Below are positions 6,265 through 31,314 of a DNA stretch of 45,897 nucleotides, piece after piece; position 1 is the first letter of the stretch; each line of letters starts with the position of its first letter. Source of the DNA: Candidatus Methanoperedens nitratireducens (GTDB taxonomy: Archaea > Halobacteriota > Methanosarcinia > Methanosarcinales > Methanoperedenaceae); NCBI GenBank assembly GCA_020724545.1, contig DYGR01000023.1, positions 1-45,897 on the forward strand. Direction: 5' to 3'. The translations under genes were made by a program, and so were the position numbers. The notes below the pieces were generated by a model. That model had not been told where the DNA came from, did no database searches, and saw nothing but the letters and a program-made list of their open reading frames with translations.

Positions 6265-6322
6265 GAACCTTCACACATATTTCACACTCTTGTTTATATA
6301 CATGAGATCTTAAAAAAACATC

Positions 6323-6395
6323 TGGATTTCCCCCTCTCCCATCTATATAAAAAACTATTTTCCTGTCCCACAGGCAAAAAAAAGGGGGAAATCCA
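6323..6395 (+). ncRNA. Candidate small RNA, unit 1
   Basis: The expected transcription start, about 24 bases after the TATA box at 6293-6300, falls at the 5' arm TGGATTTCCCCCT (6323-6335). This arm pairs perfectly over 13 bases with AGGGGGAAATCCA (6383-6395). The 47-base interior holds a second hairpin, CCTGT-CCC-ACAGG (6362-6374). There is no open reading frame of note. The unit would give an RNA of about 73 bases closed by its own ends. Function unknown; it does not match a tRNA, C/D box or CRISPR repeat that I know. Confidence 0.5.
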
Positions 6396-6476
6396 TCTAT
6401 TACTACAGGCTGATAGTACCCATTTCACACATACCTCACAATTCTGTTTATATACCTTAACTCTTAAATGATACTA

Positions 6477-6545
6477 TGGACTCCCTTTCTCTTCATATTT
6501 TACACCTTTTACTCTATCTCGGAGTTAGAAAAGAGAGGGAGTCCC
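6477..6545 (+). ncRNA. Candidate small RNA, unit 2
   Basis: The same spacing from the TATA box at 6447-6454 places the start at GGACTCCCTTTCT (6478-6490), which pairs with AGAGAGGGAGTCC (6532-6544) through 13 pairs including one G-U. The interior contains a small ACTC/GAGT hairpin (6510-6525 region). The stem sequence differs from unit 1, so the pairing has been kept while the bases changed. The end of the unit is about 110 bases before the glycogen synthase start. Confidence 0.5.
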
Positions 6546-6657
6546 ATACCAGGTCTCTTAGCATAATACCTGAAACAATGGAAACGATCTGTAAGCGGTG
6601 AAGTTAACTATAATTGTAAGAACATCTAATATGAGTATATGAGCGGGGTTAGGGAGC

Positions 6658-7818
6658 ATGGATACTCTTAGAATAGCTTTTTTCTGCTGGGAATCTCTCT
6701 ATTCAGTGAGAGTTGGTGGACTTGCGGCAGCAGCTACACATCTTGCCGAAAGCCTGGCAAAAGATCACGAGGTACATTTTTTTACACCGGCTATAGATGG
6801 TCATGCAAAGATGGCAGAGATAAACGGGGTCTCTTATCACAGGTGCCATCCTTCAGGCGGGAATATAGTTGAGTACTGTAAAAACATGAGCCTTGAGATG
6901 GTTGAGGATTATATGCAGGAGGAGAAAAACGGAAGCTTCGATATCCTCCATTTCCACGACTGGCATATAACCGAAGCATTGCACTCACTCAGGGATAGAT
7001 CAACGGTTTTAACTTTTCACTCAACCGAGTACGGAAGAAGCGGGAATACATTCGGGAACTGGTGGGAGTTTAAAGAGATATCAGACAAAGAATGGTATGC
7101 AGGGCTTATGAGCAGAAAGGTTACAACAGTTTCACATGCGCTTAGAGATGAAGTGAAGCATCTCTATGATATTCCTGACTGGAAAATAGATGCCGTGCCT
7201 AACGGCATACATCCCGGGGCTTTTTACAGGGATGTTGATAAGGAGGAAGTGAAGAAGGAGTACGGCATACCTCCCCATGTACCTGTTATACTCTTTGTTG
7301 GCAGGCTTACCTATCAAAAGGGGCCTGATATTTTGCTTGATGCAGTTCCAGAAGTTTTGAAACACCAGTCTGATACAAGGTTCATCTTTGCCGGTGATGG
7401 GGATATGCGCAGTCATCTCAAGAGCAGGATAACAGGGCTTAACGGCACTGCAAAATTTCCTGGTTATTTATCGGATGATGAGTTTGTAAGAATACTCAAT
7501 GCCTGTGATATTCTTGTAATTCCAAGCAGGAACGAGCCGTTCGGACTTGTCCTGCTTGAGGCATGGAGCGCCAGGAAGTGTGCTGTAGCTACAGATGTTG
7601 GCGGGCTTTCAGAGAATATTGACAACTATGTTAATGGAGTTAAGGTGCCTGTAGATCCTGGTTCAATTGCCGTGGGAATTAACCATGTACTGGATTACCC
7701 ATCTACTATGCAGGATATGGGCAGAAAAGGCAGGGAGAAACTTGAGAAGGAATTCCGCTGGGATGTTATTTCCAAAAAAATGCTTAAGGTCTATTCAACT
7801 GTATCAGATTATGCTTAA
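6658..7818 (+). CDS. GT4-family glycogen synthase / glucan glucosyltransferase
   Basis: The 386-residue retaining glycosyltransferase of family GT4 would extend an alpha-1,4-glucan from a nucleotide sugar. The N-terminal Rossmann domain has the glycine loop at about 20-21 (VGGLAAAATHLA) and FHDWH (99-103). The C-terminal domain has PNGIHPG (181-187), FVGRLTYQKG (213-222) and the EX7E donor-site motif with Glu293 and Glu301 (EPFGLVLLEAW). It is shorter than bacterial GlgA (about 475, GT5) and closer to archaeal GT4 synthases. ATG 6658 follows GTTAGGGAG. It leads a six-gene operon with branching enzyme, so glycogen synthase is more likely than a lipid or S-layer glycosyltransferase. Donor specificity (ADP- or UDP-glucose) cannot be read from the sequence. 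Confidence 0.8.
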   Translation: MDTLRIAFFCWESLYSVRVGGLAAAATHLAESLAKDHEVHFFTPAIDGHAKMAEINGVSYHRCHPSGGNIVEYCKNMSLEMVEDYMQEEKNGSFDILHFHDWHITEALHSLRDRSTVLTFHSTEYGRSGNTFGNWWEFKEISDKEWYAGLMSRKVTTVSHALRDEVKHLYDIPDWKIDAVPNGIHPGAFYRDVDKEEVKKEYGIPPHVPVILFVGRLTYQKGPDILLDAVPEVLKHQSDTRFIFAGDGDMRSHLKSRITGLNGTAKFPGYLSDDEFVRILNACDILVIPSRNEPFGLVLLEAWSARKCAVATDVGGLSENIDNYVNGVKVPVDPGSIAVGINHVLDYPSTMQDMGRKGREKLEKEFRWDVISKKMLKVYSTVSDYA

Positions 7819-7848
7819 AGCCAGTGGCTTTCCTGCGGGGAGATAGAG

Positions 7849-9759
7849 ATGGGAGAGGTAATATACGATGTAAGCAGGTTCACAGATTACGATATCTACC
7901 TTTTCAGAGAAGGGAATCACTTAAGACTTCATGAGAAATTGGGCTCCCACGGCATGACCGTAGATGGGATCGATGGTACCTATTTTGCGGTCTGGGCTCC
8001 CGATGCACAGAATGTATCTGTCATAGGGGATTTCAATGGATGGGGTCCTGATTCTCATCATTTAAGGTTAAAAGATAATGCCTGCGGAATCTGGGAAGGA
8101 TTTATCTCCACTGCCAGCAGGGGTGCGCACTACAAGTATCACATAGCCTCTAAGTACAACAGTTATAGAGTTGATAAAGGTGATCCATTTGCCTTCTATT
8201 GCGAGACCCCGCCGCAGACCGCCTCCATTGTATGGGATTTAGGTTATGAGTGGAACGATGCAGAATGGATGGAAAAGCGCCAGAGATATAATTCACTTAA
8301 CTCACCTTTTGCGATATATGAGGTTCATCTCGGATCATGGAGGCGTGTACCTGAGGAGAACAATCGCTCTCTTACCTACAGGGAGATAGCTGAGCATCTT
8401 GCAGGGTACATAAAAGATACAGGGTTCACGCATGTTGAATTCCTGCCCCTGATGGAGCACCCTTTCTACGGCTCCTGGGGTTACCAGACATCCCAGTACT
8501 TTGCACCCACGAGCAGGTATGGCACACCCCAGGATCTTATGTATCTGATTGACTACCTTCACCAGCATGATATTGGCGTGATCATGGACTGGGTTCCCTC
8601 CCACTTTCCTGGCGATGAGCACGGGCTTGTCTATTTTGACGGCACATATCTCTACGAGCACGCCGATACCAGGAAGGGATTTCATCCTGACTGGAACAGC
8701 TATATCTTCAATTACGGTCGAAACGAGGTGCGTGGCTTTCTTATCAGCAGTGCGCTCTTCTGGCTTGAGAATTACCACATCGATGCGCTCAGGATCGATG
8801 CTGTGGCTTCTATGCTTTACCTTGATTATTCCAGAACGCATGGAGAGTGGATTCCCAACGGGCACGGAGGCAGGGAGAACCTTGAGGCAGTAGATTTCAT
8901 ACGCAGGCTAAACAGGGCAGCTTATGAGAAACACCAGATCCAGACAATAGCCGAGGAATCAACTGCATGGCCCATGGTTACAAGACCCACGTTCACAGGA
9001 GGTCTTGGTTTTGGCATGAAGTGGAACATGGGCTGGATGCATGATATGCTTGAGTACCTATCAAAAGACCCCATCTACCGCAAGTACCATCACAACAATC
9101 TCACGTTCAGCATATGGTATGCCTTCACAGAGAACTTTGTACTTCCGCTCTCTCACGATGAGGTTGTCTATGGAAAAGGTTCACTCATTGGTAAAATGCC
9201 AGGGGATGACTGGCAGAAGTTCGCCAATCTCCGCCTTCTTCTCGGCTACATGTATGCGCATCCGGGCAAGAAGCTATTGTTCATGGGAGGGGAGTTCGGG
9301 CAGTGGCGGGAGTGGAACCACGATGAGAGCCTGAACTGGCATCTTCTTCAGTATACACCGCACCAGCAGATCAGGCGATGGGTTGGGGAGTTAAACCACT
9401 TCTACAGAAAAGAGCCTTCTTTGCATGAACTGGATTTTGAGGCCGGAGGGTTTGAATGGATCGATTGCAATGACTGGGAACACAGCGTTATCAGCTTTAT
9501 CAGGAAGGGAAAGTCCAGTGATATTATGCTGGCAGTCTGTAATTTCACACCTGTTCCACGGTATAACTACAGGATTGGAGTTCCCGCAGGCGGCTTCTGG
9601 AAGGAGGTTCTGAACAGCGATGCCCAGGAATACGGTGGAACAGGTCACGGTAACTTCGGCGGGGTTGAAGCAGAGCCGATCCCTTTTCATGGAAGGCATC
9701 ATTCCCTCTCTTTAACCCTGCCGCCGCTTGGGATTATCTTCTTCAAAAAAGAGGCATGA
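7849..9759 (+). CDS. glgB: 1,4-alpha-glucan branching enzyme
   Basis: The 636-residue GH13 subfamily 9 enzyme introduces alpha-1,6 branches into glycogen. An N-terminal CBM48 module contains GTYFAVWAPDAQNVSVIGDFN. The catalytic barrel shows HPFYGSWGYQ, DWVPSHFP, the nucleophile Asp317 in LRIDAVASMLYLDY, the acid/base Glu in IAEESTAWP (about 369-370) and the third acid Asp437 in LSHDEVVYGKGSL. The all-beta C-terminal domain begins about residue 530. Length is normal for a GlgB with one N-terminal module. It starts 30 bases after the synthase and is followed by treZ within 2 bases, which supports one operon. Confidence 0.93.
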   Translation: MGEVIYDVSRFTDYDIYLFREGNHLRLHEKLGSHGMTVDGIDGTYFAVWAPDAQNVSVIGDFNGWGPDSHHLRLKDNACGIWEGFISTASRGAHYKYHIASKYNSYRVDKGDPFAFYCETPPQTASIVWDLGYEWNDAEWMEKRQRYNSLNSPFAIYEVHLGSWRRVPEENNRSLTYREIAEHLAGYIKDTGFTHVEFLPLMEHPFYGSWGYQTSQYFAPTSRYGTPQDLMYLIDYLHQHDIGVIMDWVPSHFPGDEHGLVYFDGTYLYEHADTRKGFHPDWNSYIFNYGRNEVRGFLISSALFWLENYHIDALRIDAVASMLYLDYSRTHGEWIPNGHGGRENLEAVDFIRRLNRAAYEKHQIQTIAEESTAWPMVTRPTFTGGLGFGMKWNMGWMHDMLEYLSKDPIYRKYHHNNLTFSIWYAFTENFVLPLSHDEVVYGKGSLIGKMPGDDWQKFANLRLLLGYMYAHPGKKLLFMGGEFGQWREWNHDESLNWHLLQYTPHQQIRRWVGELNHFYRKEPSLHELDFEAGGFEWIDCNDWEHSVISFIRKGKSSDIMLAVCNFTPVPRYNYRIGVPAGGFWKEVLNSDAQEYGGTGHGNFGGVEAEPIPFHGRHHSLSLTLPPLGIIFFKKEA

Positions 9760-9760
9760 T

Positions 9761-11590
9761 ATGAGAATAGGAGCTCAGTACATGGGTAATGGAAGATGCG
9801 AGTTTACGCTGTGGGCACCCTTCTTAAAAAGCGCAGCAGTAAGAGCAGTCTCTCCTGATAAGCGCATTGTTCCCATGCACAGGGACAGGTGGGACTACTG
9901 GAGGATAACACTTGATTCGGTTTTTCCAGGGACACTCTATTTCTACAGGCTTGATGAGGCTCTTGATAGACCGGATCCAGCATCCAGCTCCCAGCCAGAG
10001 GGCGTGCATGGCCCCTCCCGGGTGGTGGACCACAGTGTTTTCAGGTGGAAGGATAAGGAATGGTCTGGCCTGACTCTGGAAAAGATGATTATATACGAAC
10101 TCCATGTGGGAACATTCACACCAGAGGGTACATTTGAGGACATCATACCCCGGCTTGAGGATCTGTGTGATCTTGGGATAAATGCCCTGGAGCTTATGCC
10201 TGTGGCTCAATTCCCGGGTGAGCGGAACTGGGGATACGATGGGGCTTATCCCTTTGCTGTACACAATTCCTACGGCGGCCCTGAGGGATTGAAGAAGCTC
10301 GTCGATGCCTGCCACAGGCGCGGTATGGCCGTAATCCTGGATGTTGTCTATAATCATATCGGGCCGGAGGGGAATTACTTTGATAACTTTGGCCCATACT
10401 TTACTGATAAGTATAGATCACTCTGGGGCGGGGTTATTAACTTCGATGAGGCCTGCAGCGATGATGTAAGGAACTTTTTTATTGAGAATGCCCTTCACTG
10501 GTTTGGGAACTACCATATAGATGTACTCCGGCTTGACGCTGTCCACGGGATATACGATATGGGCGCAAAGCACTTCCTGCAGGAACTTGCAGAAAGAACA
10601 GGAGAATTCTCAGAAAGGCATGGAAGAAAATACTATCTTGTGGCAGAGGGCTGTCTGGATGATACCAGGTACGTACGTCCCGGAGAACTGGGAGGCTATA
10701 GTATTGATGCCATGTGGTGTGATGACTTTCACCACAGCGTTCATGCACTGCTCGCAGGTGAAACCACGGGCTATAATCTTGATTTCGGCAGGATAGGACA
10801 TCTTGTGAAAGCTTTTAATGAAGGTTTCGTCTACTCCTGGCAGTACTCATCCAACAGAAAAAAACACATCGGAAGCTCTTCCAGAGATATTCCGGCACAT
10901 CAATTCATCGTATTCACTCAGAACCACGATGTTACAGGTAACCGGATGTTAGGTGAGAGACTGTCAAAGCTTGTATCCTTTGAGGCCCTTAAGCTGTCAG
11001 CAGGCGCTGTACTGCTCTCTCCATATATTCCGCTCCTCTTCATGGGGGAAGAATACGGGGAAGAATCGCCATTCCTTTACTTCATCAGCCACTCAGACCC
11101 TGACCTTGCAGCCGCTGTGCGGAAAGGACGAAAAGAAGATTTTCGGGAATTTAAATGGCACGGTGAACCTCCCGACCCTCAGAGTACAGAGACATTCTAT
11201 CGGTCAAAACTCAGATGGGATAAGAGAAAAGAGGGCAGGCACAGGACACTTCTTGGGTTTTACAAGAGACTAATCCAGCTTAGAGGGGAGATCCCTGCGC
11301 TCTCAAATCTCGATAAGAGAAGCCTTAATATCTCTGGCATGGAAGATGACAGGCTCATTTTTCTGCGGAGATGGCACCATGAGAGCCAGGTATTCTGCGC
11401 TATGAATTTCAACAGTAAAGACATGATCCTCCACACCGATCTCCCGGAAGGAGAATGGAAAAAGAGGATGGATTCCTCAGAAGAGGTATGGGAAGGTCCT
11501 GGCTCTTATATGCCTCCGAGTATCGAGTCAGGACAGGAATTGATTATAAGGCCGCTGAGTTTTGTGTTATATATCCGGGAGCCGATATGA
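9761..11590 (+). CDS. treZ: Malto-oligosyltrehalose trehalohydrolase
   Basis: TreZ (GH13 subfamily 10) releases trehalose from maltooligosyl-trehalose made by TreY. A CBM48-like N-terminus (CEFTLWAPFLKSAAVRAV) is followed by the barrel with ELHVGTFTPEGTFEDII, MPVAQFPGERNWGYDG, DVVYNHIGPEGNYF, nucleophile Asp259 in LRLDAVHGIYDM, acid/base Glu296 in VAEGCLDD and Asp390 in TQNHDVTGNR. NHIGPEGNY and the short AEG motif separate it from GlgB and GlgX. The 609-residue form from ATG 9761 is chosen because GAGG lies 7 bases upstream; an earlier TTG at 9728 would overlap glgB. Its stop overlaps the next start as ATGA. Confidence 0.92.
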   Translation: MRIGAQYMGNGRCEFTLWAPFLKSAAVRAVSPDKRIVPMHRDRWDYWRITLDSVFPGTLYFYRLDEALDRPDPASSSQPEGVHGPSRVVDHSVFRWKDKEWSGLTLEKMIIYELHVGTFTPEGTFEDIIPRLEDLCDLGINALELMPVAQFPGERNWGYDGAYPFAVHNSYGGPEGLKKLVDACHRRGMAVILDVVYNHIGPEGNYFDNFGPYFTDKYRSLWGGVINFDEACSDDVRNFFIENALHWFGNYHIDVLRLDAVHGIYDMGAKHFLQELAERTGEFSERHGRKYYLVAEGCLDDTRYVRPGELGGYSIDAMWCDDFHHSVHALLAGETTGYNLDFGRIGHLVKAFNEGFVYSWQYSSNRKKHIGSSSRDIPAHQFIVFTQNHDVTGNRMLGERLSKLVSFEALKLSAGAVLLSPYIPLLFMGEEYGEESPFLYFISHSDPDLAAAVRKGRKEDFREFKWHGEPPDPQSTETFYRSKLRWDKRKEGRHRTLLGFYKRLIQLRGEIPALSNLDKRSLNISGMEDDRLIFLRRWHHESQVFCAMNFNSKDMILHTDLPEGEWKKRMDSSEEVWEGPGSYMPPSIESGQELIIRPLSFVLYIREPI

Positions 11591-14013
11591 ACCGCTATAT
11601 CTGCATTCACGGCCATTTCTATCAGCCTCCAAGGGAGAATCCCTGGCTTGAAGAGGTTGAGATGCAGGATTCAGCATATCCCTACCATGACTGGAACGAG
11701 AGAATAACAGCAGAATGTTATGCTCCGAATGCCGCTTCCCGGATCCTTGATTCTGAGAAGAGGATCGTGGATATAGTCAATAACTATGCGAAAATAAGCT
11801 TTAATTTCGGGCCTACTCTTCTTTCCTGGATGCAGGTACATGCGCCCCGTACCTATCAGGCCATTATCGATGCAGACAGGGAGAGCCAGAAGAGGTTCTC
11901 AGGACACGGCTGTGCCATTGCCCAGGTCTACAACCACATGATCATGCCTCTTGCCGGTAGCAGGGACAAGCGCACCCAGGTAATCTGGGGGATAGCCGAC
12001 TTCGAGCACAGGTTCGAAAGAAAGCCTGAAGGTATGTGGGTTCCTGAGACCGCGGTTGATCTTGAGACGCTGGACATAATGGCCGAGCATGGGATAAAGT
12101 TCACCATTCTCGCACCACATCAGGCTAAACGAGTGAAGAAAATCGATGAGAAAAACTGGAAGAACGTAACTGGAGGAAGGATTGATCCAAAGGTGCCGTA
12201 TCTGTGCAGGCTTCCGTCAGGTCGGATAATCAACATTTTTTTCTATGACGGCCCGATCTCGCATGATATTGCCTTTGGCGGTCTTTTGAGCAATGGTGAG
12301 GCTTTTGCCAGAAGGCTGCTCGGAGCTTTCTCTCAGGAAGTTCAGGATAGACAGCCGCAGCTTGTCCATATTGCCACAGATGGGGAGTCCTACGGCCACC
12401 ACCACCGCTTTGGTGACATGACCCTGGCCTACTGCCTATATTATATAGAATCGAATAAACTTGCAGAGATCACCATATATGGTGAATACCTTGAGAAGCA
12501 CCCTCCTGTACATGAGGTTGAGATCATTGAGAATACATCCTGGAGCTGCGCCCATGGTATCGAGAGATGGAGAAGCAACTGCGGATGCAATGCAGGGCAT
12601 CCGGGCTGGTCCCAGGAATGGCGGCATGTGCTTCGTGAGGCCATGGACTGGCTCAGGGAGAGCTTAAAACAGATCTATGAAAAGGAGATGTCTCAATTTG
12701 TAAAAGATCCATGGCAGGCCAGGAATGACTACATCCAGGTAATCCTGGATCGGTCTTCACAGAACGTTGAGCGCTTCTTCTCAAATCATGCCGGGAAATT
12801 GTCAAAAGAAGAGAAAGCTGTGGTTCTCAGGCTCCTTGAGATGCAGCGCCATGCCATGCTCATGTACACCAGTTGCGGCTGGTTCTTTGATGAGAACTCT
12901 GGCATTGAGACCCAGCAGGTGATGCAGTATGCTGCCAGAGCAATTCAGCTTGCAAGAAATTTAAGCAGTGTAGATCTTGAGCCTTACTACCTCAGGATCC
13001 TTGAGAGAGCAGCAAGCAACATACAGGAGTTCAAAAACGGTGCAAAGGTCTACGAAATGCTTGTAAAGCCTGCAATCATCGATCTTCTCGGAGTTGGGGT
13101 ACATTACGCTGTATTTTCATTATTTGAGGAATGTCCCCAGACATTTAAGATCTACTGCTATACAGTCAGAGGCGACGCATGCGATATGAGTGTGGCCGGA
13201 AAACAGAGACTTGCCACCGGTATGGCACGCCTTGTATCCGATATCACATGGGAGGAGAGCGCAATAAGCTTTGCAGTTCTTCACCTCGGGGACCACAATG
13301 TAATAGGAGGTGTACATGAGCACGGAACAGATGAAGATTTCGTTAATATCAATCAGAAAATAAAAGACGCTTTTATGAAAAGCGATGTACCTGAAGTTAT
13401 TTCTTTAATGGATAAATACTTCGGGACTCATAACTACTCATTGCGCCACCTCTTCAGGGATGAGCAGAGAAAGATACTGGATCAGATTCTCAGGTCTGCG
13501 ATAGAAGATACAGAGAATTCCCTTCGCCAGATATACGGTTACTATTACCCTGTCATGAACTTCATGAATGATGTGCATGTTCCCCTCCCCGGAATCCTCA
13601 CCAGTATCGCAGGGTTCATACAGAATACAGATATCCGCCAGTTGCTTGAGAGTGAGGATTTTGATCCAGGAAGGCTTCAAAAATTGATTGAAGAGGTTAA
13701 ACGATGGCATGTTGATCTGGATAAGGGTACAATATGTCTTGCAGCAGGCAGGAAAATAAACTCTCTGATGGAAGAGCTGTCCCGATCCCCTGCTGATGCG
13801 TCTTTGCTTGAGACTGCAAGGATTACGCTTGAGATTCTGGGTGCTCTATCCCTGAAACTGAATCTCTGGGAAGCCCAGAATATATATTTCTCAATCGGAA
13901 AACAACTTTATAATGATATGCTGGACAGGGCAGAGAAAGGAGAACCTGATTCAAAGAGATGGGTTGAGCATTTCAATGGCCTTGGATATCATCTGGGGGT
14001 CAGGATCAAGTAA
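11587..14013 (+). CDS. GH57 glycoside hydrolase with DUF3536 domain
   Basis: The 808-residue protein starts at ATG 11587, which overlaps the treZ stop by four bases. The N-terminal half is a GH57 domain: motif 1 HGHFYQPP (8-15), motif 3 GMWVPETAVD with the likely nucleophile Glu154, and motif 4 ATDGESYGHHH with the likely acid/base Asp265. The C-terminal half matches DUF3536, which is usually found joined to this GH57 subgroup. GH57 enzymes act on alpha-1,4 or alpha-1,6 glucans (amylase, amylopullulanase, branching enzyme, glucanotransferase). In this operon a role in debranching or trimming glycogen is likely, since no GlgX, GlgP or pullulanase-type GH13 is visible. No signal peptide is seen, so it acts in the cytoplasm. 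Confidence 0.85.
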   Translation: MNRYICIHGHFYQPPRENPWLEEVEMQDSAYPYHDWNERITAECYAPNAASRILDSEKRIVDIVNNYAKISFNFGPTLLSWMQVHAPRTYQAIIDADRESQKRFSGHGCAIAQVYNHMIMPLAGSRDKRTQVIWGIADFEHRFERKPEGMWVPETAVDLETLDIMAEHGIKFTILAPHQAKRVKKIDEKNWKNVTGGRIDPKVPYLCRLPSGRIINIFFYDGPISHDIAFGGLLSNGEAFARRLLGAFSQEVQDRQPQLVHIATDGESYGHHHRFGDMTLAYCLYYIESNKLAEITIYGEYLEKHPPVHEVEIIENTSWSCAHGIERWRSNCGCNAGHPGWSQEWRHVLREAMDWLRESLKQIYEKEMSQFVKDPWQARNDYIQVILDRSSQNVERFFSNHAGKLSKEEKAVVLRLLEMQRHAMLMYTSCGWFFDENSGIETQQVMQYAARAIQLARNLSSVDLEPYYLRILERAASNIQEFKNGAKVYEMLVKPAIIDLLGVGVHYAVFSLFEECPQTFKIYCYTVRGDACDMSVAGKQRLATGMARLVSDITWEESAISFAVLHLGDHNVIGGVHEHGTDEDFVNINQKIKDAFMKSDVPEVISLMDKYFGTHNYSLRHLFRDEQRKILDQILRSAIEDTENSLRQIYGYYYPVMNFMNDVHVPLPGILTSIAGFIQNTDIRQLLESEDFDPGRLQKLIEEVKRWHVDLDKGTICLAAGRKINSLMEELSRSPADASLLETARITLEILGALSLKLNLWEAQNIYFSIGKQLYNDMLDRAEKGEPDSKRWVEHFNGLGYHLGVRIK

Positions 14014-16838
14014 TGCAGAACCAATTAATGCATATCCCGTCAGCAACCTGCAGGATCCAGTTCAATTCTTCCTTTGGCTTTGAGGCAGCCAAAAAAATAC
14101 TTCATTACCTTTACCTGCTTGGCATCTCAGATATATACGCCTCACCCATATCAAAAGCAAGAGAGGGAAGTACCCATTGCTACGATGTGGCTGACCCGAA
14201 TCAACTGAACCCTGAGCTTGGAGCAGTGGAAGAGTTTGAAGGGCTTGTAAGAGAACTTAAGAACCATGCAATGGGATGGCTTCAGGATATAGCCCCGAAC
14301 CATATGGCCTATAGCTACCAGAACCGGATGCTCATGGATATCCTGGAGAACGGCCAGCACTCCAGGTATTACAATTTCTTCGACATAGATTGGAATCATC
14401 ACTGCGAAGGTATGAGCGGAAGACTCCTTGCTCCTTTCCTGGGAAAATTATATTGTGAGTGCCTTGAGAACGGGGAGATTAAGTTAAGGTATGACCGGGA
14501 CGGCCTGATCATCAATTATTCCAGTCTTGGATTTCCTGTAAAGATAGAGTCGTATACCAGATTTCTAACATATGATCTTGATGGGCTAAAAAAGGTGCCT
14601 GGAGAGCACCACCCTGATCTCATGAAGATCAATGAGATCCTGGAGGCTCTCTATATCCTGAAAAACCTGCCGGCTGATGAAAAAGGAAGAGAGCGATATG
14701 AAAGAGTGACGTTTATAAAAAAAACGCTGTGGCAGCTCTATAAGGAAAGCCCAGAGATAAAGGGATTTATAGATAAGAACATAGAGACCTTCAACGGCGA
14801 GAGGGGAAATCCACAGAGTTTTAACCTGCTCGATACACTGCTCTCTGAGCAGTTGTTCAGGTTATCCTTCTGGAAGGTCGCAACTGAAGAGATAAACTAC
14901 AGGCGGTTTTTCAATATAAATGATCTGATATGCATGAAAATGGAAAATAAAAACGTTTTTGACCATGCGCATTCTCTCATTTTTAAACTTATTGAAGAGA
15001 AAAAAATAACCGGGTTGAGAATAGACCATATCGATGGACTGTACGATCCAGCAGAATACCTGAAAAGAGTAAGAGAGAGATCTGGTAATGTATACATGAC
15101 CGTTGAGAAGATCCTTGATCTTAAAGAGAAGCTTCCCTCTTCCTGGCCTGTACAGGGAACAACAGGTTATGATTTTTTGAATTACGTAAACGGGGTTTTC
15201 TGTAATGGGGAAAACAAGAGTAGATTTGACAGGATATACTCTGAATTTACTGGCTCAAGTACCCGGTATAAGGATATAGTATGTGAGAAAAAGAGGCTGA
15301 TACTTGAGAAGCACATGGCAGGTGATGTCGATAATCTTGCCCACCTTATAAAGAGAATATCAAGCAGGTATAGATACGGGAATGATATTACACAGTGTCG
15401 CATCAAAAGGGCCCTGGTTGAGATCATGGTGCATTTTCCAGTTTACAGGACATACATAAGCTGCAATGGTATGGGCGGTACGGACAGATCGAACATAAGG
15501 GAGGCTGTGGATAATGCAAAGAGGACAGACCCAGAACTTTTAAATGAATTTGATTTCATCGAGAGGTTGATCCTCACTGGATTCGGAAATGGAAATTACC
15601 CGGGCAAGGATGAGCGGAACCAGTGGATTCACTTCATCATGACGTTCCAGCAATTCACTGGACCGCTGATGGCAAAGGGATTTGAGGATACTGTGCTGTA
15701 CGTGTACGATAGACTTCTGTCTCTCAATGAGGTGGGCGGGAACCCGGACCAGTTCGGGATTTTATTAGAAGAATTCCACAAATTCAATATGAACAGGGCA
15801 AAGCTCTGGCCGCATTCAATAAATGCTACATCAACCCATGATACGAAAAGGGGTGAGGATGCCAGGGCAAGAATAAACGTTCTCTCTGAGATGCCTGATG
15901 AGTGGGAGATGAGAATCAAAGTATGGAGAAGGATGAATATAATAAAAAAGAGGACTTTGAATGGCGAAGAGATACCGGATAGAAACGATGAGTACTTCCT
16001 CTACCAGACCCTTATTGGCTCCCTTCCTTCTGATTATGTCAAATATCCTGCCTTTATGGAGAGGCTAAAGAACTACATCATAAAGGCTGCAAGGGAGGCC
16101 GGCATCCACACCTCATGGCTTAAGCAGAATCCAGAGTACGAAGGCGGCTTTATCTCATTCATAGAAGAGATTCTAAAGCCCACAGAGGAGAATCAGTTCC
16201 CGGGTGATTTCCTGCGATTCCAGAGAAAGGTAGCATACTACGGTATACACAACTCCCTCTCCCAGACGCTTATCAAGATAACCTCTCCAGGCATACCTGA
16301 TCTCTATCAAGGGACAGAGCTGTGGGATCTTAATTTCGTAGACCCTGATAACCGCCGCCCTGTTGACTTTGAAGAGAGGAAAACACTCCTGTGGGAAATA
16401 AGGGATAGAGTACAGATGGATATCTTAAACCTTATATCTGAGCTTCTATCCACGGCAGAAGATGGGAGGATCAAGCTCTTTTTGATATACAGGGCACTCG
16501 GAATAAGAAGGGAAAAAAAAGAGCTATTCCAGGAAGGGGATTATATTCCACTTAAGACGGGTGGAAGATATAAAGACCATATCATTGCCTTTGCAAGAGA
16601 TCATGGGAATGCATGGGCGGTTACTGTAGCTCCAAGATTCCTGACACCTCTTATAGATGAGGGGCAGTATCCCCTTGGCATTGAGGTATGGCATGATACC
16701 TGCATCTTTATTCCAGAAGGTGCCCCTTGTCTCTGGAAGGATGCCATCACCGCACAGACAATCAGAGGCGAGAAGACCCTCATGATAGGCGAGGTCTTAA
16801 GATACTTCCCTGCAGCCCTGCTCATGAGCGAGGGATAA
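14013..16838 (+). CDS. treY: Malto-oligosyltrehalose synthase
   Basis: TreY (GH13 subfamily 26) converts the reducing-end maltose unit of a glucan to a trehalose unit inside the chain. The 941-residue length is in the range of the family (700-950). Visible motifs are ATCRIQFNSSFGFEAAKKIL at the N-terminus, SPISKAREGSTHCYDV, DIAPNHMAYS, nucleophile Asp338 in LRIDHIDGLYDP, acid/base Glu365 in MTVEKIL, and Asp610 in TSTHDTKRGEDARARI, which is characteristic of TreY. PDLYQGTELWDLNFVDPDNR is the C-terminal signature. ATG at 14013 shares one base with the stop of the GH57 gene, indicating translational coupling. With treZ it forms the TreYZ route to trehalose. Confidence 0.93.
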   Translation: MQNQLMHIPSATCRIQFNSSFGFEAAKKILHYLYLLGISDIYASPISKAREGSTHCYDVADPNQLNPELGAVEEFEGLVRELKNHAMGWLQDIAPNHMAYSYQNRMLMDILENGQHSRYYNFFDIDWNHHCEGMSGRLLAPFLGKLYCECLENGEIKLRYDRDGLIINYSSLGFPVKIESYTRFLTYDLDGLKKVPGEHHPDLMKINEILEALYILKNLPADEKGRERYERVTFIKKTLWQLYKESPEIKGFIDKNIETFNGERGNPQSFNLLDTLLSEQLFRLSFWKVATEEINYRRFFNINDLICMKMENKNVFDHAHSLIFKLIEEKKITGLRIDHIDGLYDPAEYLKRVRERSGNVYMTVEKILDLKEKLPSSWPVQGTTGYDFLNYVNGVFCNGENKSRFDRIYSEFTGSSTRYKDIVCEKKRLILEKHMAGDVDNLAHLIKRISSRYRYGNDITQCRIKRALVEIMVHFPVYRTYISCNGMGGTDRSNIREAVDNAKRTDPELLNEFDFIERLILTGFGNGNYPGKDERNQWIHFIMTFQQFTGPLMAKGFEDTVLYVYDRLLSLNEVGGNPDQFGILLEEFHKFNMNRAKLWPHSINATSTHDTKRGEDARARINVLSEMPDEWEMRIKVWRRMNIIKKRTLNGEEIPDRNDEYFLYQTLIGSLPSDYVKYPAFMERLKNYIIKAAREAGIHTSWLKQNPEYEGGFISFIEEILKPTEENQFPGDFLRFQRKVAYYGIHNSLSQTLIKITSPGIPDLYQGTELWDLNFVDPDNRRPVDFEERKTLLWEIRDRVQMDILNLISELLSTAEDGRIKLFLIYRALGIRREKKELFQEGDYIPLKTGGRYKDHIIAFARDHGNAWAVTVAPRFLTPLIDEGQYPLGIEVWHDTCIFIPEGAPCLWKDAITAQTIRGEKTLMIGEVLRYFPAALLMSEG

Positions 16839-16840
16839 GG

Positions 16841-18319
16841 ATGAAGAGAAGAGGAAGCGGCATTTTGCTCCATATCACATCCCTGCCCTCACGATACGGG
16901 ATCGGTGATCTCGGGCCTGAGGCATATAGATTTGCTGACTTTCTTGCCATGACCGGACAGAGTTTCTGGCAAATACTTTCTTTAACACCAACCAGGCCTG
17001 CCAGTGGCAACTCTCCTTACAACAGCTCATCTGCCTTTGCAGGGAATACTCTTCTGATCAGCCCCGAGCTTATGCCTGATAAAGAGGATCCAGTACCCTC
17101 ATTCCAGGAGGACAGGGTCGATTACCCTGAGGTTATATCCTATAAAGAGAGACTTTTTAATAGAGCGTATAAGCGTTTTACTGAGGATAAAGAATACAAT
17201 TATGAATACGAGAGATTCTGCTCAGAGAATTCAGGCTGGCTTGAGGATTTTTCTTTTTTTATTGCCCTTAAAGCGCATTTCCATGGACCGATATGGGGTG
17301 AGTGGCCGCATGAGATAAAAAATAGAGAGCCGCAGGCTCTGCAAGTATTAAAAAAGCAACTGCATAACCGTATCGAGAGGGAGAAATTCCTTCAGTATAT
17401 CTTCTTCAAGCAGTGGTTCTCGCTCAAGCGCTACTGCAACCAGAGGGGAATCCAGATTATCGGGGATATGCCCATTTACGTTGATTACGACAGCACGGAC
17501 GTATGGACAAATCCACACATCTTCAGGCTGGATGAGGAGAAAAGACCATCCTTTGTTGCAGGTGTTCCGCCCGATTATTTCAGCCAGACAGGACAGTTAT
17601 GGGGGAACCCGGTCTACCGGTGGGATATACTGAAAGAGAGCGGATATGCATGGTGGATCCAGCGCATGGAACATAACCTGAAGCTCTTTGATATTGTGCG
17701 GATCGACCACTTCCGGGGTTTTATTGCATACTGGCAGGTCAGGGCGGGCGAGAGGGCAGCAACAAGAGGGCAGTGGATCAAAGCGCCAGCAGAGGATTTT
17801 TTTAATACGCTGCTTCGGCACTTCCCCGATCTTCCAATCATCGCAGAGGATCTTGGTGTAATAACACCCGATGTAAGGGAGGTCATGAACCGCTTTGAGT
17901 TTCCCGGTATGCGGCTGCTTCTCTTTGCCTTTGATGAGAACCTTCCAGCAAGTCCATACGCACCGCATAACCATGTGAAAAACTGCGTGGTATATACCGG
18001 GACACATGATAACAACACGGTAAAAGGATGGTTCGAGCATGAAGCATCGCAGGACGATAAAGAGAGGTTGTTTAACTACATTGGAAAAGAGGTCTCATCT
18101 CAGGATGTCCACCTTGAGTTCATCAGGCTGGCTATGATGTCCGTGGCAAAGGTAGCTATTCTTCCCATGCAGGATATCCTGGGTATCGGTGAAGAGGGCA
18201 GGATGAACAGGCCTGCAGCCGGGAAGGGGAACTGGCAGTGGCGGCTTCTACCAGGTGAGTTAACACCTGCACTTATCAGAAGGCTGCAAAAAATGACAGA
18301 AATCTATGGGAGGGCATAA
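16841..18319 (+). CDS. malQ: 4-alpha-glucanotransferase (amylomaltase)
   Basis: The 492-residue GH77 enzyme transfers alpha-1,4-glucan segments and releases glucose. Motifs: GILLHITSLPSRYGIGDLGP at the N-terminus, GDMPIYVDYDSTDVW, nucleophile Asp289 in VRIDHFRGF, acid/base Glu336 in IIAEDLGVIT and Asp390 in TGTHDNNTVKGW. Spacing is like Thermus amylomaltase. ATG 16841 lies 2 bases after the treY stop, with the GAGGGATAAGG region as ribosome binding site; a longer upstream frame inside treY is rejected. It is the last gene of the operon, and the glucose it frees would be the substrate of the dehydrogenase downstream. Confidence 0.93.
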   Translation: MKRRGSGILLHITSLPSRYGIGDLGPEAYRFADFLAMTGQSFWQILSLTPTRPASGNSPYNSSSAFAGNTLLISPELMPDKEDPVPSFQEDRVDYPEVISYKERLFNRAYKRFTEDKEYNYEYERFCSENSGWLEDFSFFIALKAHFHGPIWGEWPHEIKNREPQALQVLKKQLHNRIEREKFLQYIFFKQWFSLKRYCNQRGIQIIGDMPIYVDYDSTDVWTNPHIFRLDEEKRPSFVAGVPPDYFSQTGQLWGNPVYRWDILKESGYAWWIQRMEHNLKLFDIVRIDHFRGFIAYWQVRAGERAATRGQWIKAPAEDFFNTLLRHFPDLPIIAEDLGVITPDVREVMNRFEFPGMRLLLFAFDENLPASPYAPHNHVKNCVVYTGTHDNNTVKGWFEHEASQDDKERLFNYIGKEVSSQDVHLEFIRLAMMSVAKVAILPMQDILGIGEEGRMNRPAAGKGNWQWRLLPGELTPALIRRLQKMTEIYGRA

Positions 18320-22674: not shown

Positions 22675-23820
22675 TCAGAGCCGCTTAAGCATTATCGCCA
22701 TCACTCCCGGCCTGGCATCCATCTTAGGCTCTGACGGAAACCCAAACATTGGCATATCAGAGCCTCCTAAAAACTCCTTCTCCCACCGCTCTGTTATTTC
22801 TTTGAATATCCTCTTATAGGCAGTACAGTGGGGGTCGACGCCCTTTACTTCACCCTCAGTAGGTGCTATGGCATTGTAGGGACATCCTCCCCGGCAGAAT
22901 TTAATGTAGTTGCATTCCCCGCAATTCTGGTCCACATATTCCTTGAACTGGAACATGAGCTTCCATGCGTCGGACTGAGCCAGATCTTCCATTCCTGGAT
23001 GGTCATGAACATTGCCCATAACATATTCTGGCATACCCACAAAGCGATAGCAGGGATATATGCTCCCGTCAGGTCCCACCGCAAAGGTATCCCCCATACA
23101 ATCCACGAAGGTGCAGACAGTGCCCCGGTTGGTGAACACGCATTTACACAGGTGGTCAATATTCATAAGTTCAATCCTGCTCATGTTTTCCAGGTATTTA
23201 TCCAGAAGATAGACTAACAATTCCCCGTACTCTTCTGGATCAAGTGCCCATTTCCCAGGATCTTCGGAACGTAATGACGGCAGTGCGGGATGTAATTTAA
23301 GATTTAAACCATTCTCAAGGAAAAAATTGAAAATATCCTCCCTGAACTTTACAGAATAGGATGTGAAGGTGCAGATGAAACTCACCTTGAGACCGGAAGC
23401 CTTAGCAATCTCATAGCCCCGAATGGTCTTCTCGTAGTACCCTTTTCCTCTCTGCAGGTCAGTAAGCTCCTGCGGGCCATCTAAACTGGAACCGATGGGA
23501 ATATTATACTCAGCCAGGATCCGGGCCAGTTCCGGGGTAATTTTCCAGAGATTGGTCTGCAGGGCAAAAGCCGGTTTAAGATGATCCAAACCCTCAGCCA
23601 GTAGAGGTAGCGCTTTTCGGTAAAAATCAGCGCCCGCCAGGAGCGGCTCCCCGCCGTGGAAAGTAAAGGTAACCGGTTCATTCCGGAAATTCTTAAGCCA
23701 CGTAACCACTTCTTTGATGGTTTCAATGCTCATTACTGGAGATCCTTCCTCTGAACTCCAGCAATAACTACATTTAGAAGGACAGCCCAGAGTAGGGATC
23801 AGCATCACGTGAAAAGCCAT
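22675..23820 (-). CDS. Radical SAM / SPASM protein (anSME or peptide-maturase type)
   Basis: The 381-residue form from ATG 23820 opens MAFHVMLIPTLGCPSKCSYC with the radical SAM cluster Cys13, Cys17, Cys20 (CX3CX2C), the GGEPLL motif and SLDGPQELTDLQRGKG. The C-terminal third is a SPASM domain with CTFVDCMGDTFAVGPDGSIYPCYRF and CGECNYIKFCRGGCPYNA, which ligate two extra Fe-S clusters. Such proteins modify sulfatases or ribosomally made peptides. A longer frame to 23922 would leave 2 bases to rpiA on the other strand. The inner start has AAGGTG, and a TTTAAATA box lies upstream of it, so it is preferred. No short precursor peptide is visible nearby. Confidence 0.8.
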   Translation of the reverse strand: MAFHVMLIPTLGCPSKCSYCWSSEEGSPVMSIETIKEVVTWLKNFRNEPVTFTFHGGEPLLAGADFYRKALPLLAEGLDHLKPAFALQTNLWKITPELARILAEYNIPIGSSLDGPQELTDLQRGKGYYEKTIRGYEIAKASGLKVSFICTFTSYSVKFREDIFNFFLENGLNLKLHPALPSLRSEDPGKWALDPEEYGELLVYLLDKYLENMSRIELMNIDHLCKCVFTNRGTVCTFVDCMGDTFAVGPDGSIYPCYRFVGMPEYVMGNVHDHPGMEDLAQSDAWKLMFQFKEYVDQNCGECNYIKFCRGGCPYNAIAPTEGEVKGVDPHCTAYKRIFKEITERWEKEFLGGSDMPMFGFPSEPKMDARPGVMAIMLKRL

Positions 23821-23924
23821 AAAACACCTTCTTTTAGCCTTCTTCAAACTATTAATAGTATTTAAATTTAACTCAGGCTTTCTGGCGACATCATCCACAA
23901 GTATTTTTATCATCTCAGACATAG

Positions 23925-24611
23925 ATGCGCACTATGACCCATCATAACAATCCCAAGCAGGCTGCAGGAGAGCAGGCCGCCCGGCTTGTAAAAAACGGAA
24001 TGGTCGTTGGGCTTGGCACAGGCTCAACTACTGCTTATGCAATAAAAGAACTCGGAAAACGTGTCGCTTCAGGCCTCAGGATCCTGGGTGTGCCCACATC
24101 TTACCAGTCAGCATATTTAGCAGTAGAACATGGCATTCCCCTTACCACCCTGGATGAGCACCCTGCTCTTGATATTGACATTGACGGCGCTGATCAGATA
24201 GCCAGTTTCACTGCAATCAAAGGCGGAGGAGGCGCGCATACGCGGGAAAAAATAGTGGCTCTATCCTCCCGGCGGTTTGTTGCTGTAGTGGACGATTCAA
24301 AATGTGCGGATATTCTGAACCACCATGTTCCGCTTGAGGTCATACCCTTTGCACGAAAACTCGTGATAAAACAGATAGCAGAACTCGGGGGAAGGGCAGA
24401 GCTACGTATGGGCATAAATAAAGACGGGCCTGTTATTTCGGATAACGGGAATCTCATTATGGATGCTGATTTTGGAGCAATAGATGATCCTGTTTATCTG
24501 GATGAAGCTATTTCACGATGTATCGGCGTTGTTGAACATGGAATATTCACAGGTGTTGATGTTATTTATATCGGGAAAAAAGACGGCTCTGTAGAGATAC
24601 TGGAATCCTAG
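23925..24611 (+). CDS. rpiA: Ribose-5-phosphate isomerase A
   Basis: The 228-residue enzyme interconverts ribose 5-phosphate and ribulose 5-phosphate. Signature blocks are [18 protein letters not shown] (phosphate loop), [11 protein letters not shown] (catalytic Asp), [14 protein letters not shown] (with the general-base Glu and Lys) and the C-terminal [19 protein letters not shown]. Length and domain order are typical of archaeal RpiA. Two alternative starts (ATG 23925 or 23934) are possible. It diverges from the radical SAM gene and overlaps the end of the converging nucleotidyltransferase by 4 bases. Confidence 0.93.
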
Positions 24612-25783
24612 GAACCCTTTATCTCGTTGTCGAAGTCCTCATTCCCGAGGTTCTCACTGACCCTGGTTCCACTTTTTACCCTGACCTCAGGCCATATCCT
24701 CACAGGTGAATTAACCGTTACCTCATCCCCGATTATGACCCTCGGGCCAATAACTGTGCCTGTCTCAAGGATGCACGAATCTTTTATTTTAGTGGCATTA
24801 TCGATAATTGCGCCTGAGACCATGGTGTTAGAGCCTATTTCAATGTTATCAAAGATATAAGAAGAGAGAATCCTTGAACCATTGCCGATCTTGCAGTTTG
24901 AGCCGATGGATGTATATGGGCCGATCAATACATTATCTCCGATAGAGGTATTCTCTCCGATTACTATAGGACCGACAACAGCAGAATTTGAACCCAGATA
25001 TACATCATGTCCAAGATCGATTGGACCAGTCACCTTTGCATCCTTAACATTAAGGCGCCCTGAGATCTTTGTACCCGGCATCTGCTCAAGCATCCATCTG
25101 CATGCTTCCCTGTAAGCCTGCGGGTTACCTATATCTGTCCATCTCCCGTGTACAAGGAAGCCATTGATATTCTCGCCCTTTTTCATGATCTGTGGAAAAA
25201 GGTCTTTCGCAAAATCATATTTCTCCCCTGGTATCCATTTCAGGACCTCAGGGTCGCATACGTATATGCCCGTACTTGCAAGGTTGCTGAAAATCTCACC
25301 TGGCCCCGGTTTCTCAAAGAAGCGGGTTATCCTGTTATTGACATCCAGGTCAGCAATACCATACTCACGCGGATCATCGATCGGGATTAAGCCTATAGTC
25401 ACAGGAGCATCGTTTTTCTCATGAAAACGGAAGAACTCCCTGAGCCTGAGGTTCATGACATGATCTCCTCCCACGACCAGAAATGGCTCTCCTTCGAATA
25501 ACTCTTCTGCATTTTTTACTCCTCCTGCAGTTCCCATTTTTTCTTTCTCATGTACATATTCGATATGTACACCATACATACTGCCATCGCCGAGCGCTGC
25601 CTCTATTTCGCCACCAAGATATCCCAGTGTAAGCACGATATCATTAAAACCCTCCATAGCCAGATGCTCGACCAGGTGTACCAACGATGGTTTATTTAAC
25701 AGAGGGATCGTCGGTTTTGGCCTGTCAAAAGTAAGCGGTCTGAGCCTTGTGCCCTCGCCGCCGCACATTATACATGTCTTCAT
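24608..25783 (-). CDS. Sugar-1-phosphate nucleotidyltransferase with left-handed beta-helix
   Basis: The 391-residue protein has an N-terminal nucleotidyltransferase domain with [20 protein letters not shown] (nucleotide loop), [10 protein letters not shown] (metal-binding Asp), [19 protein letters not shown] and [17 protein letters not shown]-terminal hexapeptide-repeat helix (about 245-365) has repeats such as [20 protein letters not shown]. Archaeal members act on glucose-, mannose- or glucosamine-1-phosphate, and the exact sugar cannot be told from the motifs. It could supply the nucleotide sugar for the glycogen synthase, but it lies outside that operon and S-layer or lipid glycosylation is equally possible. 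Confidence 0.82.
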
Positions 25784-25835
25784 TCGAATACCCTAATTGG
25801 AAATTAATTTATGAGTATATAGAGATAACGAAACG

Positions 25836-27992
25836 TCAATAACAGACTATATTTTTTTCTAATAACCCTTTCAAAAAGTTCTTACACTTAGACTCAGCCT
25901 CATTATAAGGCATTTGATACTTCTCTCTGATTACCTCAACTATTTCTGATATATCTAATTCTCCACTGCTCCTGTCCAGCACGTCCTTTGCAAAATCGGT
26001 TATAGTAAATATCCTGTTATTATTGGTATCAAACAGTACATTTGTTCTCTCTTTATGCAGCATGTTCTCCAGGGAGTCCCCTGCCAGCATGATATGAATT
26101 ATCTGTGCCAGATTGAAATTAAACGTTCTTACAAAAACCCCTTCATTGAGAACCGGATATATTCCATTATTTTGGGTATCAGTTGTGGTGTATTTCTTTA
26201 TCTGTTCCTTCTTTATCCTATCAATCAGTTCGGATAAACCCCGCTCATTCGTATATCCCTTATAGTGAGAGATATAAAGAAAAAGATGTTCCCTATCAAG
26301 ATTGCCCCAGATAGAGAAATCCCTGTACTGCAAAGAAAGCTCATTATAGAATTCCTGTATCAACTCATCCGTCTCTTTCTTTGACATTCCGCGGGTGGCT
26401 TCATAATCATACCAGAGCGACAGGTCTATACTCTCATTTCGAATTATTGTCTTAACATCAAACAATGGTGGGTTCTCATACACTTTTGAGTGCTTTGTAA
26501 GCTGGAAACTGCCAAACGACATTGAGCGGATTATTTTATTATTATGCAGGATAAAATCTACTGTCTCTCTTGCCTCATGGCGGGTCTCTGTAGGAAACCC
26601 GAATATTAAAAAAAGATGTGACCAGATTCCCGCATCAGCGCAGTATTTACAGATGTTTAACACGTTATCTTTTTTTATACCTTTATCCATGCATGACAGG
26701 ATCCTGTCATTAGCAGATTCCAGTCCAAAATACAACATCTTACACCCTGCATCAGCGATCTTATTGCCAAACTCAGCAGAAAATATCGAATCAAATCTCG
26801 AATCTGCCAACCACGATATATCAAGATTATTCTCTATTATCTTATCAGATAATGCACTTACCAATCCTGGAGAAACCCCTTCATCCTGAAACGTGAAAAA
26901 GCTTGTTTTATATCTATCTTTTAGTGTCTTGAGATCATTAAATAATAGATCAACATCCCTGGGCCTGTAATTCCCTGAATAACCATAACTATGGTCACAA
27001 AAGGTACAGCGTCTCCAGTAGCATCCCCTTGATGAAAGTACAGGAAGGATGAGTTCAGGTGAAAAATATAATGAGAGTGGAAGACCATCAAAACATGGAG
27101 AGGGTAAAGAATTAATATCCTCTCCCTTAGAACTGAGCCTGTTGATCCTGATCCCGGATCCACTTTTATAGATGAGGTTGGGGATATCTTCAATGTCAAA
27201 TCCATTGCTCAGATGTTTTGTGAGATTCAATAAAGCGGTCTCACCTTCATGTACGATCACACTATCAAATATAGAGAAAAGCTTCTCATTTTTGCTTATC
27301 TCATTGATCAGACGCGTGAAAATACTGCCCCCTATATTTATATGTATATTCTCATCTGCTCTTTTAATAAGGCTTGCAAGCGTTAGTCCAGGGATTAATT
27401 GACTGGTATTGATTATCGAAATACCTATTAGATCAGGTCTGTTTTCAAGGATTTTAGGGACCGTCTCTTTCTCGAAATAATCAATAAAGAGATTCTCTTC
27501 CCGATCATTAATCGCAGCAAGAATAGCTTTACTTGAGCGGCATGAGTAGCGCATATCATATGAATGAAAGGTCAGGTTTGTAGGATAATAAGCCGAAGAA
27601 GCAAGCTTAAGTCCAAGCTCAAGTATTTTAAAAGCTCTAAATAGCTCTTTAACATTATAGAAATCCTTCTTATCCCTTAAAAGCTTTTTCGCATTATCCG
27701 TTTCATCAATAATGTATTTGCCAAAAAGAACAGAACTGCTCAGTTCTGTGTACTGTTTCTGAAGGTGAGGTGATAGTTCTTTTTTGGACTCCATATCCTG
27801 GAATTTCGAATAAATTCTCTCATATAAGCCAGAGAGTCTCTGTTTACTTAACAGATCATCATAAAAGGATACATTGATATCCATCTGCTCTACATCACAA
27901 TTATTGGCCTTCAGGAAGGCGAAGAGAGATGGGAGACTTAAATAAGGCTGGGTTGGGATCCATTGGGGCGGGAATAGTAATTTTGTAAGCAT
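25836..27992 (-). CDS. Cobalamin-type radical SAM protein with PqqD-like C-terminus
   Basis: The 718-residue protein has an extended N-terminal region (LLFPPQWIPTQPYLSLPSLF, residues 6-25) and a cobalamin-binding-like Rossmann part (about 180-275, with DLIGISIINTSQL and HINIGGS). Its radical SAM core has a CX4CX2C cluster, Cys324, Cys329 and Cys332 (RGCYWRRCTFCDHS). Strands FFTFQDEG and MLYFGLESANDRIL are typical of the B12 radical SAM family. The last 75 residues, VLFDTNNNRIFTITDFAKDV and on to FLKGLLEKNIVCY, look like a PqqD/RRE-type peptide-binding domain. This combination suggests peptide or protein modification. No precursor peptide is identified. It diverges from the small gene at 28050 with a shared 57-base promoter region. 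Confidence 0.75.
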   Translation of the reverse strand: MLTKLLFPPQWIPTQPYLSLPSLFAFLKANNCDVEQMDINVSFYDDLLSKQRLSGLYERIYSKFQDMESKKELSPHLQKQYTELSSSVLFGKYIIDETDNAKKLLRDKKDFYNVKELFRAFKILELGLKLASSAYYPTNLTFHSYDMRYSCRSSKAILAAINDREENLFIDYFEKETVPKILENRPDLIGISIINTSQLIPGLTLASLIKRADENIHINIGGSIFTRLINEISKNEKLFSIFDSVIVHEGETALLNLTKHLSNGFDIEDIPNLIYKSGSGIRINRLSSKGEDINSLPSPCFDGLPLSLYFSPELILPVLSSRGCYWRRCTFCDHSYGYSGNYRPRDVDLLFNDLKTLKDRYKTSFFTFQDEGVSPGLVSALSDKIIENNLDISWLADSRFDSIFSAEFGNKIADAGCKMLYFGLESANDRILSCMDKGIKKDNVLNICKYCADAGIWSHLFLIFGFPTETRHEARETVDFILHNNKIIRSMSFGSFQLTKHSKVYENPPLFDVKTIIRNESIDLSLWYDYEATRGMSKKETDELIQEFYNELSLQYRDFSIWGNLDREHLFLYISHYKGYTNERGLSELIDRIKKEQIKKYTTTDTQNNGIYPVLNEGVFVRTFNFNLAQIIHIMLAGDSLENMLHKERTNVLFDTNNNRIFTITDFAKDVLDRSSGELDISEIVEVIREKYQMPYNEAESKCKNFLKGLLEKNIVCY

Positions 27993-30494: not shown

Positions 30495-30506
30495 TTGACT
30501 CACCTC

Positions 30507-31256: not shown

Positions 31257-31314
31257 ATTTTTTTTCCTCCTTATTTTATTTGAATCGGTTCCTTCCGCTT
31301 CCAGGATAAACTCA

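Follow-up and report, generated by a model that had tools for sequence, protein, structure and literature searches.

Here we show that two tandem hairpins upstream of a glycogen operon of Candidatus Methanoperedens nitratireducens have the appearance of genes for regulatory RNAs of roughly 55-75 bases that belong to an undescribed family. The existence of the family, its paired stems, the identity of its promoter and one long antisense match that covers a start codon are established by computation. The family is probably a new one among archaeal small RNAs, for the most part under a motility promoter and with an antisense action at translation starts.

Results

Two tandem units with the same promoter and a closed terminal stem

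The window, that is the whole stretch of 45,897 nucleotides analysed, carries two tandem units at 6270-6395 and 6424-6545, each of them formed by two TCACA half-sites, the element TTTATATA, 22 bases and an RNA-like stretch closed by the pairing of its own two ends (Table 1). A repeat search in the window gave a direct repeat between 6270-6331 and 6424-6485 with an identity of 73%, together with inverted repeats of 13 nt in copy 1 (6323-6335/6383-6395, 100%) and 17 nt in copy 2 (6478-6494/6528-6544, 88%). A CCUGUCCCACAGG hairpin is present in copy 1 and absent in copy 2, the common parts being the promoter and the outer stem. Since the genome is archaeal, with mcrA and mcrB in the window and archaellin genes outside it, TTTATATA was read as an archaeal TATA box. 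Its 3' end lies at 6300 in unit 1 and at 6454 in unit 2; in both units the T preceding the GGA of the stem is found 23 bases past this end, and the first G 24 bases past it. From established promoter geometry we infer that the stem foot is the expected transcription start of both units. The first-pass annotation had described a shared promoter block, an equal spacing between TATA box and stem and 13-bp terminal stems, all of which were confirmed in both units. Its distance of 23 bases from the TATA box to the first pair is indeed the same in the two, but in copy 2 the outermost T6477 is opposite to a C and the clean helix starts at G6478.

The box pattern, allowing up to three mismatches, has exactly two matches in the window versus none in 100 shuffles. 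On the plus strand copies 1 and 2 fold with -25.9 and -27.0 kcal/mol (z of -4.87 and -3.87), values equalled by 0 of 200 shuffles; the minus strands also fold (z of -3.81 and -3.16, respectively) because the units are near-palindromes. No U-run was found within 30 bases 3' of the stem in either window unit. At gathering score the Rfam search of the window returned only an HNH endonuclease-associated (HEARO) RNA at the contig edge, leaving both units without a family, and a relaxed search gave five matches, all on the minus strand and far below gathering.

Table 1. Coordinates of the features discussed, in the window unless a contig or locus is given.
Feature	Position	Strand	Basis or remark
Motility-type box, unit 1	6271..6286; TCACA 6271-6275 and 6282-6286, 11 bp apart	+	pattern match, 0 mismatches
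Archaeal TATA box TTTATATA, unit 1	6293..6300	+	sequence
RNA 1	6323..6395	+	repeats, folding; covariance model R2 match 6323-6395, E 5.3e-13 (copy itself part of the model)
RNA 1 parts	5' arm 6323-6335, bulge 6336-6357, inner hairpin 6358-6379, 3' arm 6383-6395	+
Motility-type box, unit 2	6425..6440; TCACA 6425-6429 and 6436-6440	+	pattern match, exact
Archaeal TATA box, unit 2	6447..6454	+	sequence
RNA 2	6477..6545; outer stem 6478-6490 with 6532-6544	+	R2 match 6477-6545, E 2.3e-8 (copy itself part of the model)
Antisense stretch of RNA 2	6490..6511	+	faces the translation start of the C12 gene in an uninterrupted run of 22 pairs, one of them G-U
Predicted target gene of RNA 2	G000:C12, L015 887-1510	minus	207 aa
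Weak candidate pairing site of RNA 1	7844..7857, across ATG 7849 of the second glycogen-operon gene	+
Glycogen operon	6658..18319	+	Pfam: glycosyltransferase, branching-enzyme-like, amylase-family, GH57, 4-alpha-glucanotransferase
Candidate box regulator	L078 1988-2983, L079 11222-12265, L080 10008-11051, L081 4282-5331
HEARO RNA	4-227	minus	102.6 bits; 4-55 identical to G000:C31:145-196
TIGR04083 radical SAM enzyme (peptide-modifying), sugar-phosphate nucleotidyltransferase-like and B12-type radical SAM-like proteins	22675-27992
mcrA and mcrB	28791-33152	minus	best PDB matches of McrA: 9qqt, 9qr1
IS1182-family transposase	41950-43476

A dispersed family within the genus

Two covariance models were used, R1 with 11 copies and R2 with 20 copies and the outer stem alone paired, the latter adding further copies; neither holds any promoter sequence. 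We found 24 full copies, dispersed in 7 of the 31 genomes of the genus: four in the genome of the window (G000), nine in G015, four in G005, three in G030, two in G007 and one each in G009 and G012. The RNAs are 54-76 bases long (about 67-73 in the window), and the neighbours of the copies vary, with adenylate kinase, marC and thermosome genes among those recognised by eye. Thirteen of the 24 copies came from models favouring the stem. The promoter-free models found new copies with a box upstream in G005, G007 and G009, and with a degenerate one in G012; independently listed boxes are located directly upstream of the new copies at G009:C51 and G007:C80, and a degenerate one at G012:C5. The 3'-half remnants L010 and L011, R1 hits with E >= 0.09 and the R2 hits L138-L147 were excluded from the family. 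Among the excluded hits, L097, L098, L100, L106 and L138-L142 were seen by eye to be without a TATA box at the right place and the remaining ones were dropped by score alone; minus-strand echoes of palindromic copies were also dropped.

BLAST of unit 1 over 99 genomes gave strong copies in G000 and in G015 of the same genus, and short matches, mostly promoter-only, in the other genomes. Model R1, run over 60 genomes with stricter filters, found nothing convincing in the 29 genomes outside the genus. Plasmids and phages were searched with no match to the RNAs in either, and spread of the family on them was thus rejected. In viral contigs the hairpin pattern gave four hits, two of which score 14.2 bits by the model and the other two nothing, and there was no site of the motility box. 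No copies were found in 24 of the 31 genus genomes, and 21 of these 24 have archaellins; therefore motility does not need the RNA. Literature searches on Methanoperedens non-coding RNA and archaellum, and on archaeal small RNAs and archaella, showed, among the papers listed, no report of such RNAs in this genus; one of them was swamped by off-genus papers, so that absence from print is not established. The contamination listed for the genome of the window is 5.44%.

The G015 copy L020 shows an identity of 88.7% to window copy 1 over 6269-6416, with unlike flanks, and the genes that flank it have their G000 counterparts on two other contigs. At two further loci a full copy in G015 corresponds to the 3' half alone in G000 (L010 435-470 and L011 454-493), the flanks being 93-94% identical for about 1.5 kb in both directions. 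Copies have therefore been lost as well as gained, and in the two remnants the promoter and the 5' half were probably lost by deletion.

A conserved stem and a variable G-poor stretch

The first eight pairs of the stem are formed in all 24 copies and the pair at position 9 in 22 of them. The stem consensus, GGAYUYCC.../...GGRARUCC, is nearly constant, with position 4 being U-A in 8 copies and C-G in 16. In an alignment of 20 sequences, 11 of which were obtained from DNA similarity or adjoining DNA and the rest from the stem-favouring model, 7 of 11 pairs show changes on both sides, and covariation amounts to 0.276 versus 0.173 in shuffled alignments (0 of 500 shuffles equal). Sliding the partner by 1-3 columns led every time to fewer paired cells and less covariation. 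When the arms were swapped among the 20 copies, on average 190 of the 220 cells were paired (200 at most), compared with 204 before. The orthologues G000:C87 and G015:C2, found by eye beside adenylate kinase, display a compensatory change from C-G to T-A across the stem; these RNAs otherwise differ by one hairpin change and one indel, the variable stretch being unchanged. By these tests the outer stem is a conserved secondary structure.

Inside the stem, most of the first 11 copies have a long 5' bulge and then a helix of a U-run and an A-run that carries a small hairpin, later copies being more varied, and a CCUG...CAGG hairpin recurs in several copies. The stretch behind the 5' arm is G-poor and differs from copy to copy: positions 12-29 contain 4.5% G and 37.6% C over 22 distinct sequences, the window having 22% G. 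In the predicted folds these positions are mostly unpaired (at least 11 of 18) in 18 of the 24 copies and mostly paired in six. The idea of two related small RNAs with different targets, put forward in the first-pass annotation, agrees well with a multi-copy family having covarying stems, copy-specific middles and one strong antisense match.

The promoter box belongs to archaellum and chemotaxis genes

The box TCACA-N6-TCACA-N6-TTTATATA, with at most one mismatch, occurs at 202 sites in 22 of the 31 genus genomes, and the reversed box used as control at none in all 31. We inspected 58 distinct sites and sent 20 downstream proteins to Pfam, which gave 3 archaellins, 3 response regulators (one of them CheY and one truncated, below the Pfam cut-off), 2 MCPs, 3 histidine kinases, 1 KaiC-like ATPase and 8 proteins without a family; as clusters L077-L082 had been chosen for their richness in boxes, the sampled sites give no unbiased estimate of how frequent motility genes are. 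In G015 four box sites are found in a cluster with ArlI, ArlH, a T2SSF protein, archaellins, CheB and an MCP. The seven sites of G000 precede three RNA genes (both window units and the C87 copy), an archaellin, CheY and two further genes, one with an orthologue in the G015 motility cluster and the other, of 151 aa, 1.6 kb away from it.

As regards the 24 RNA copies, the box is exact in 14, degenerate in 3 (L137 by eye) and lacking in 7. A TATA-like box was located by script 22-25 bases before the stem in 22 of them; at L123b the script finds none, and L137 has a degenerate box alone. The motility box was rejected as the promoter of the three G030 RNAs (L096, L114 and L156), which carry instead another common promoter, AAGATTATTAA-N5-AAGATATATA, with three sites in the whole of that genome, all at RNAs. 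TACATA, the EarA site, is not found in the 100 bases before either window unit, and occurs once each before 4 of the 24 copies.

Other genes are preceded by the same box. A protein of 332-350 aa with a ribbon-helix-helix-like N-terminus (by eye) and a motility box of its own is a candidate regulator of the box (Table 1); two copies gave no Pfam match and one no NCBIfam match, and the predicted fold was unusable (pLDDT 39.7). Membrane-like proteins of 118-139 aa lie directly behind motility boxes at L056, L059, L065, L066, L070 and L083, and the three given to Pfam had no match. At L022, L024 and L048 (G007, G005 and G009) the box is followed by a different conserved stretch, outside the stem family, perhaps a short ORF, perhaps another RNA.

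A predicted target for RNA 2

BLAST of unit 2 over its own genome gave one significant hit outside the family, at G000:C12:26122-26154 (E 1.9e-4), where the site antisense to RNA 2 comprises the Shine-Dalgarno sequence GAGGTG, a spacer and ATGAAGAAA. In the predicted fold 6495-6510, that is 16 of the 22 pairing bases, are unpaired, and the duplex was calculated at -36.5 kcal/mol for the middle 35 bases and -47.5 kcal/mol for the whole RNA. The next best run of pairs of RNA 2 in 170 kb of G000 is 16, versus 22 at C12. The encoded protein has a signal-peptide-like start (by eye) and no match in Pfam or NCBIfam. It is the upstream one of two adjacent genes (L015 378-1510) for secreted-looking, repeat-like proteins, one of them with DINQ motifs. 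The complementarity suggests that RNA 2 may silence this secreted-protein gene.

Among 764 start windows RNA 1 paired best with that of the second glycogen-operon gene, but 6 of 100 shuffled bulges were as good. The ranking is biased, some of the loci having been fetched with the RNA pattern, and for RNA 2 the E-value over the whole genome should be used instead. Apart from the RNA gene itself G000 has three sites with one mismatch, of which this is one, and sites of unit 1 with up to two mismatches number 41 versus 38 for the reversed control in G000 and 41 versus 53 in G015. Predicted complementarity in trans near a start is thus strong for RNA 2 and weak for RNA 1. Over the 13 copies in G000 and G015 target pairing gave one striking match, that of RNA 2, and the other 11 copies no clear outlier at gene starts in roughly 6% of each genome.

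A generic anti-Shine-Dalgarno action was rejected, as 22 bulges against 62 G000 gene starts paired no better than shuffled ones; individual z values, at the starts of this one genome, ranged from -1.3 to 1.9 over the 22 scorable bulges, two bulges of 4 bases being unscored. Anti-Shine-Dalgarno tetramers are moderately enriched (30 versus 19.0 expected, sd 4.4; 59 of 5000 shuffles as high), with CCAC, which is not such a word, equally enriched and ACCT not enriched. The words of a first tetramer test (16 of 22 versus 8.6, 0 of 2000) had been chosen after looking, so the test with 5000 shuffles is relied on instead.

Discussion

We consider it fairly likely that these are trans-acting antisense small RNAs made with the motility regulon and encoded by a family of independent small-RNA genes. 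Both units would then be independent genes for structured RNAs of about 67-73 bases, members of the dispersed family, whose transcription would begin at the stem foot, about 23 bases past the TATA box. The RNAs would be made when the swimming genes are on, because most copies use the archaellum/chemotaxis promoter box. The nearly constant terminal stem may shield both RNA ends and present the G-poor, copy-specific 5' stretch, which would pair with the Shine-Dalgarno/start-codon region of target mRNAs and so block translation. By this route RNA 2 would silence, in the motile cell, the gene of a secreted, repeat-like surface protein. Transcription, the exact ends, repression and the motile/sessile purpose are what we infer from the computed features.

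The first-pass annotation had also raised the possibility that the hairpins regulate the glycogen operon, 110-330 bases downstream on the same strand. A cis-acting leader, either an attenuator or a protein-binding site, would suit this position, and the copy 1 bulge is complementary to the region where the second operon gene starts. The first gene of the operon (glycogen synthase), however, is found in 1 of the 31 genus genomes (E <= 1e-60), and 22 of the 24 RNA copies are located elsewhere; in L020, the closest G015 counterpart of copy 1, the bulge is almost unchanged although the glycogen operon is absent, and the pairing itself is matched by the shuffled bulges mentioned above, in start windows enriched for the pattern. 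A leader function is therefore very improbable and the case for regulation of the operon weak. Its adjacency to both units is probably incidental, because of the single occurrence of the first gene and the weak pairing of RNA 1. Relatives of the synthase in named genomes number nine loci, four of them in Methanospirillum or Methanomicrobiales with 48-50% identity.

Dispersed intergenic and tandem copies, the likeness of copy 1 and L020 between unmatched flanks and the reduction to a 3' half, in G000, of two copies that are full in G015 are what would be expected if the units were a non-autonomous, MITE-like mobile element with a promoter and a hairpin and no RNA function. In such an element it would be hard to place middles that diverge while the pairs are kept, including the compensatory change in orthologues, or the spacing of 22-25 bases between TATA box and stem in almost all copies; together with the absence of hits on plasmids or phages, these features leave this explanation decidedly unlikely. 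We regard as unlikely, though the least so of the three, that the RNA binds a protein, as sponge or scaffold for a regulator, with the stem as binding site and the variable stretch as spacer. The stem is more constant than pairing alone requires, the general target test was negative and the CCUG...CAGG hairpin is recurrent, all in keeping with a bound protein; a spacer, however, would hardly be both G-poor and copy-specific, and the 22-pair start-codon match of RNA 2 would be hard to account for.

An antisense action of these RNAs would resemble that of sRNA162 of Methanosarcina mazei, described as a trans-acting RNA with stem-loops and a variable single-stranded region masking the ribosome binding site of an mRNA (PMC3510493), a feature that is here predicted. 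As portrayed in that account, sRNA162 has about 191 nt with a linker between stem-loops, whereas the present RNAs, of 54-76 bases, are closed by a terminal stem, have a box-driven promoter and reach nine copies in one genome. In Escherichia coli the sigma28-dependent small RNAs UhpU, MotR, FliX and FlgO are likewise reported to have their expression tied to the signal of the motility regulon (PMC10578931); these are bacterial and UTR-derived, whereas the genes found here are intergenic and stand alone, have an archaeal promoter and share one scaffold. In Haloferax volcanii hvo_1211s is presented as a regulatory RNA of the motility and cell-shape network that overlaps its target gene cirA, with no sign, in the parts of the source at hand, of a multi-copy family or a common promoter box such as those of the present RNAs (PMC13286277). 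EarA-dependent fla promoters are reported to have activator sites directly upstream of the BRE/TATA of archaellum genes, with TACATA as the EarA site in Methanococcus, in contrast with the TCACA direct repeats 11 bp apart observed here (PMC5512572, PMC10665913).

More tentatively, the family may constitute an antisense-display system, in which a constant closed-end scaffold and the motility promoter are multiplied together and the fast-changing antisense stretch of each copy fits a different gene start. If this were true, duplication of a 150-base cassette would let the archaeon place new genes under its swimming programme. The box amounts to a prediction of the motility regulon of the genus, and the family offers a small natural scaffold in which the stem is kept and the antisense part varied. 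Control of archaeal motility after transcription has received little study. The hosts are anaerobic methane-cycling archaea, whose motile/sessile decision would become testable at the RNA level through a multi-copy family of small RNAs that is driven by the archaellum promoter and has a specific predicted target.
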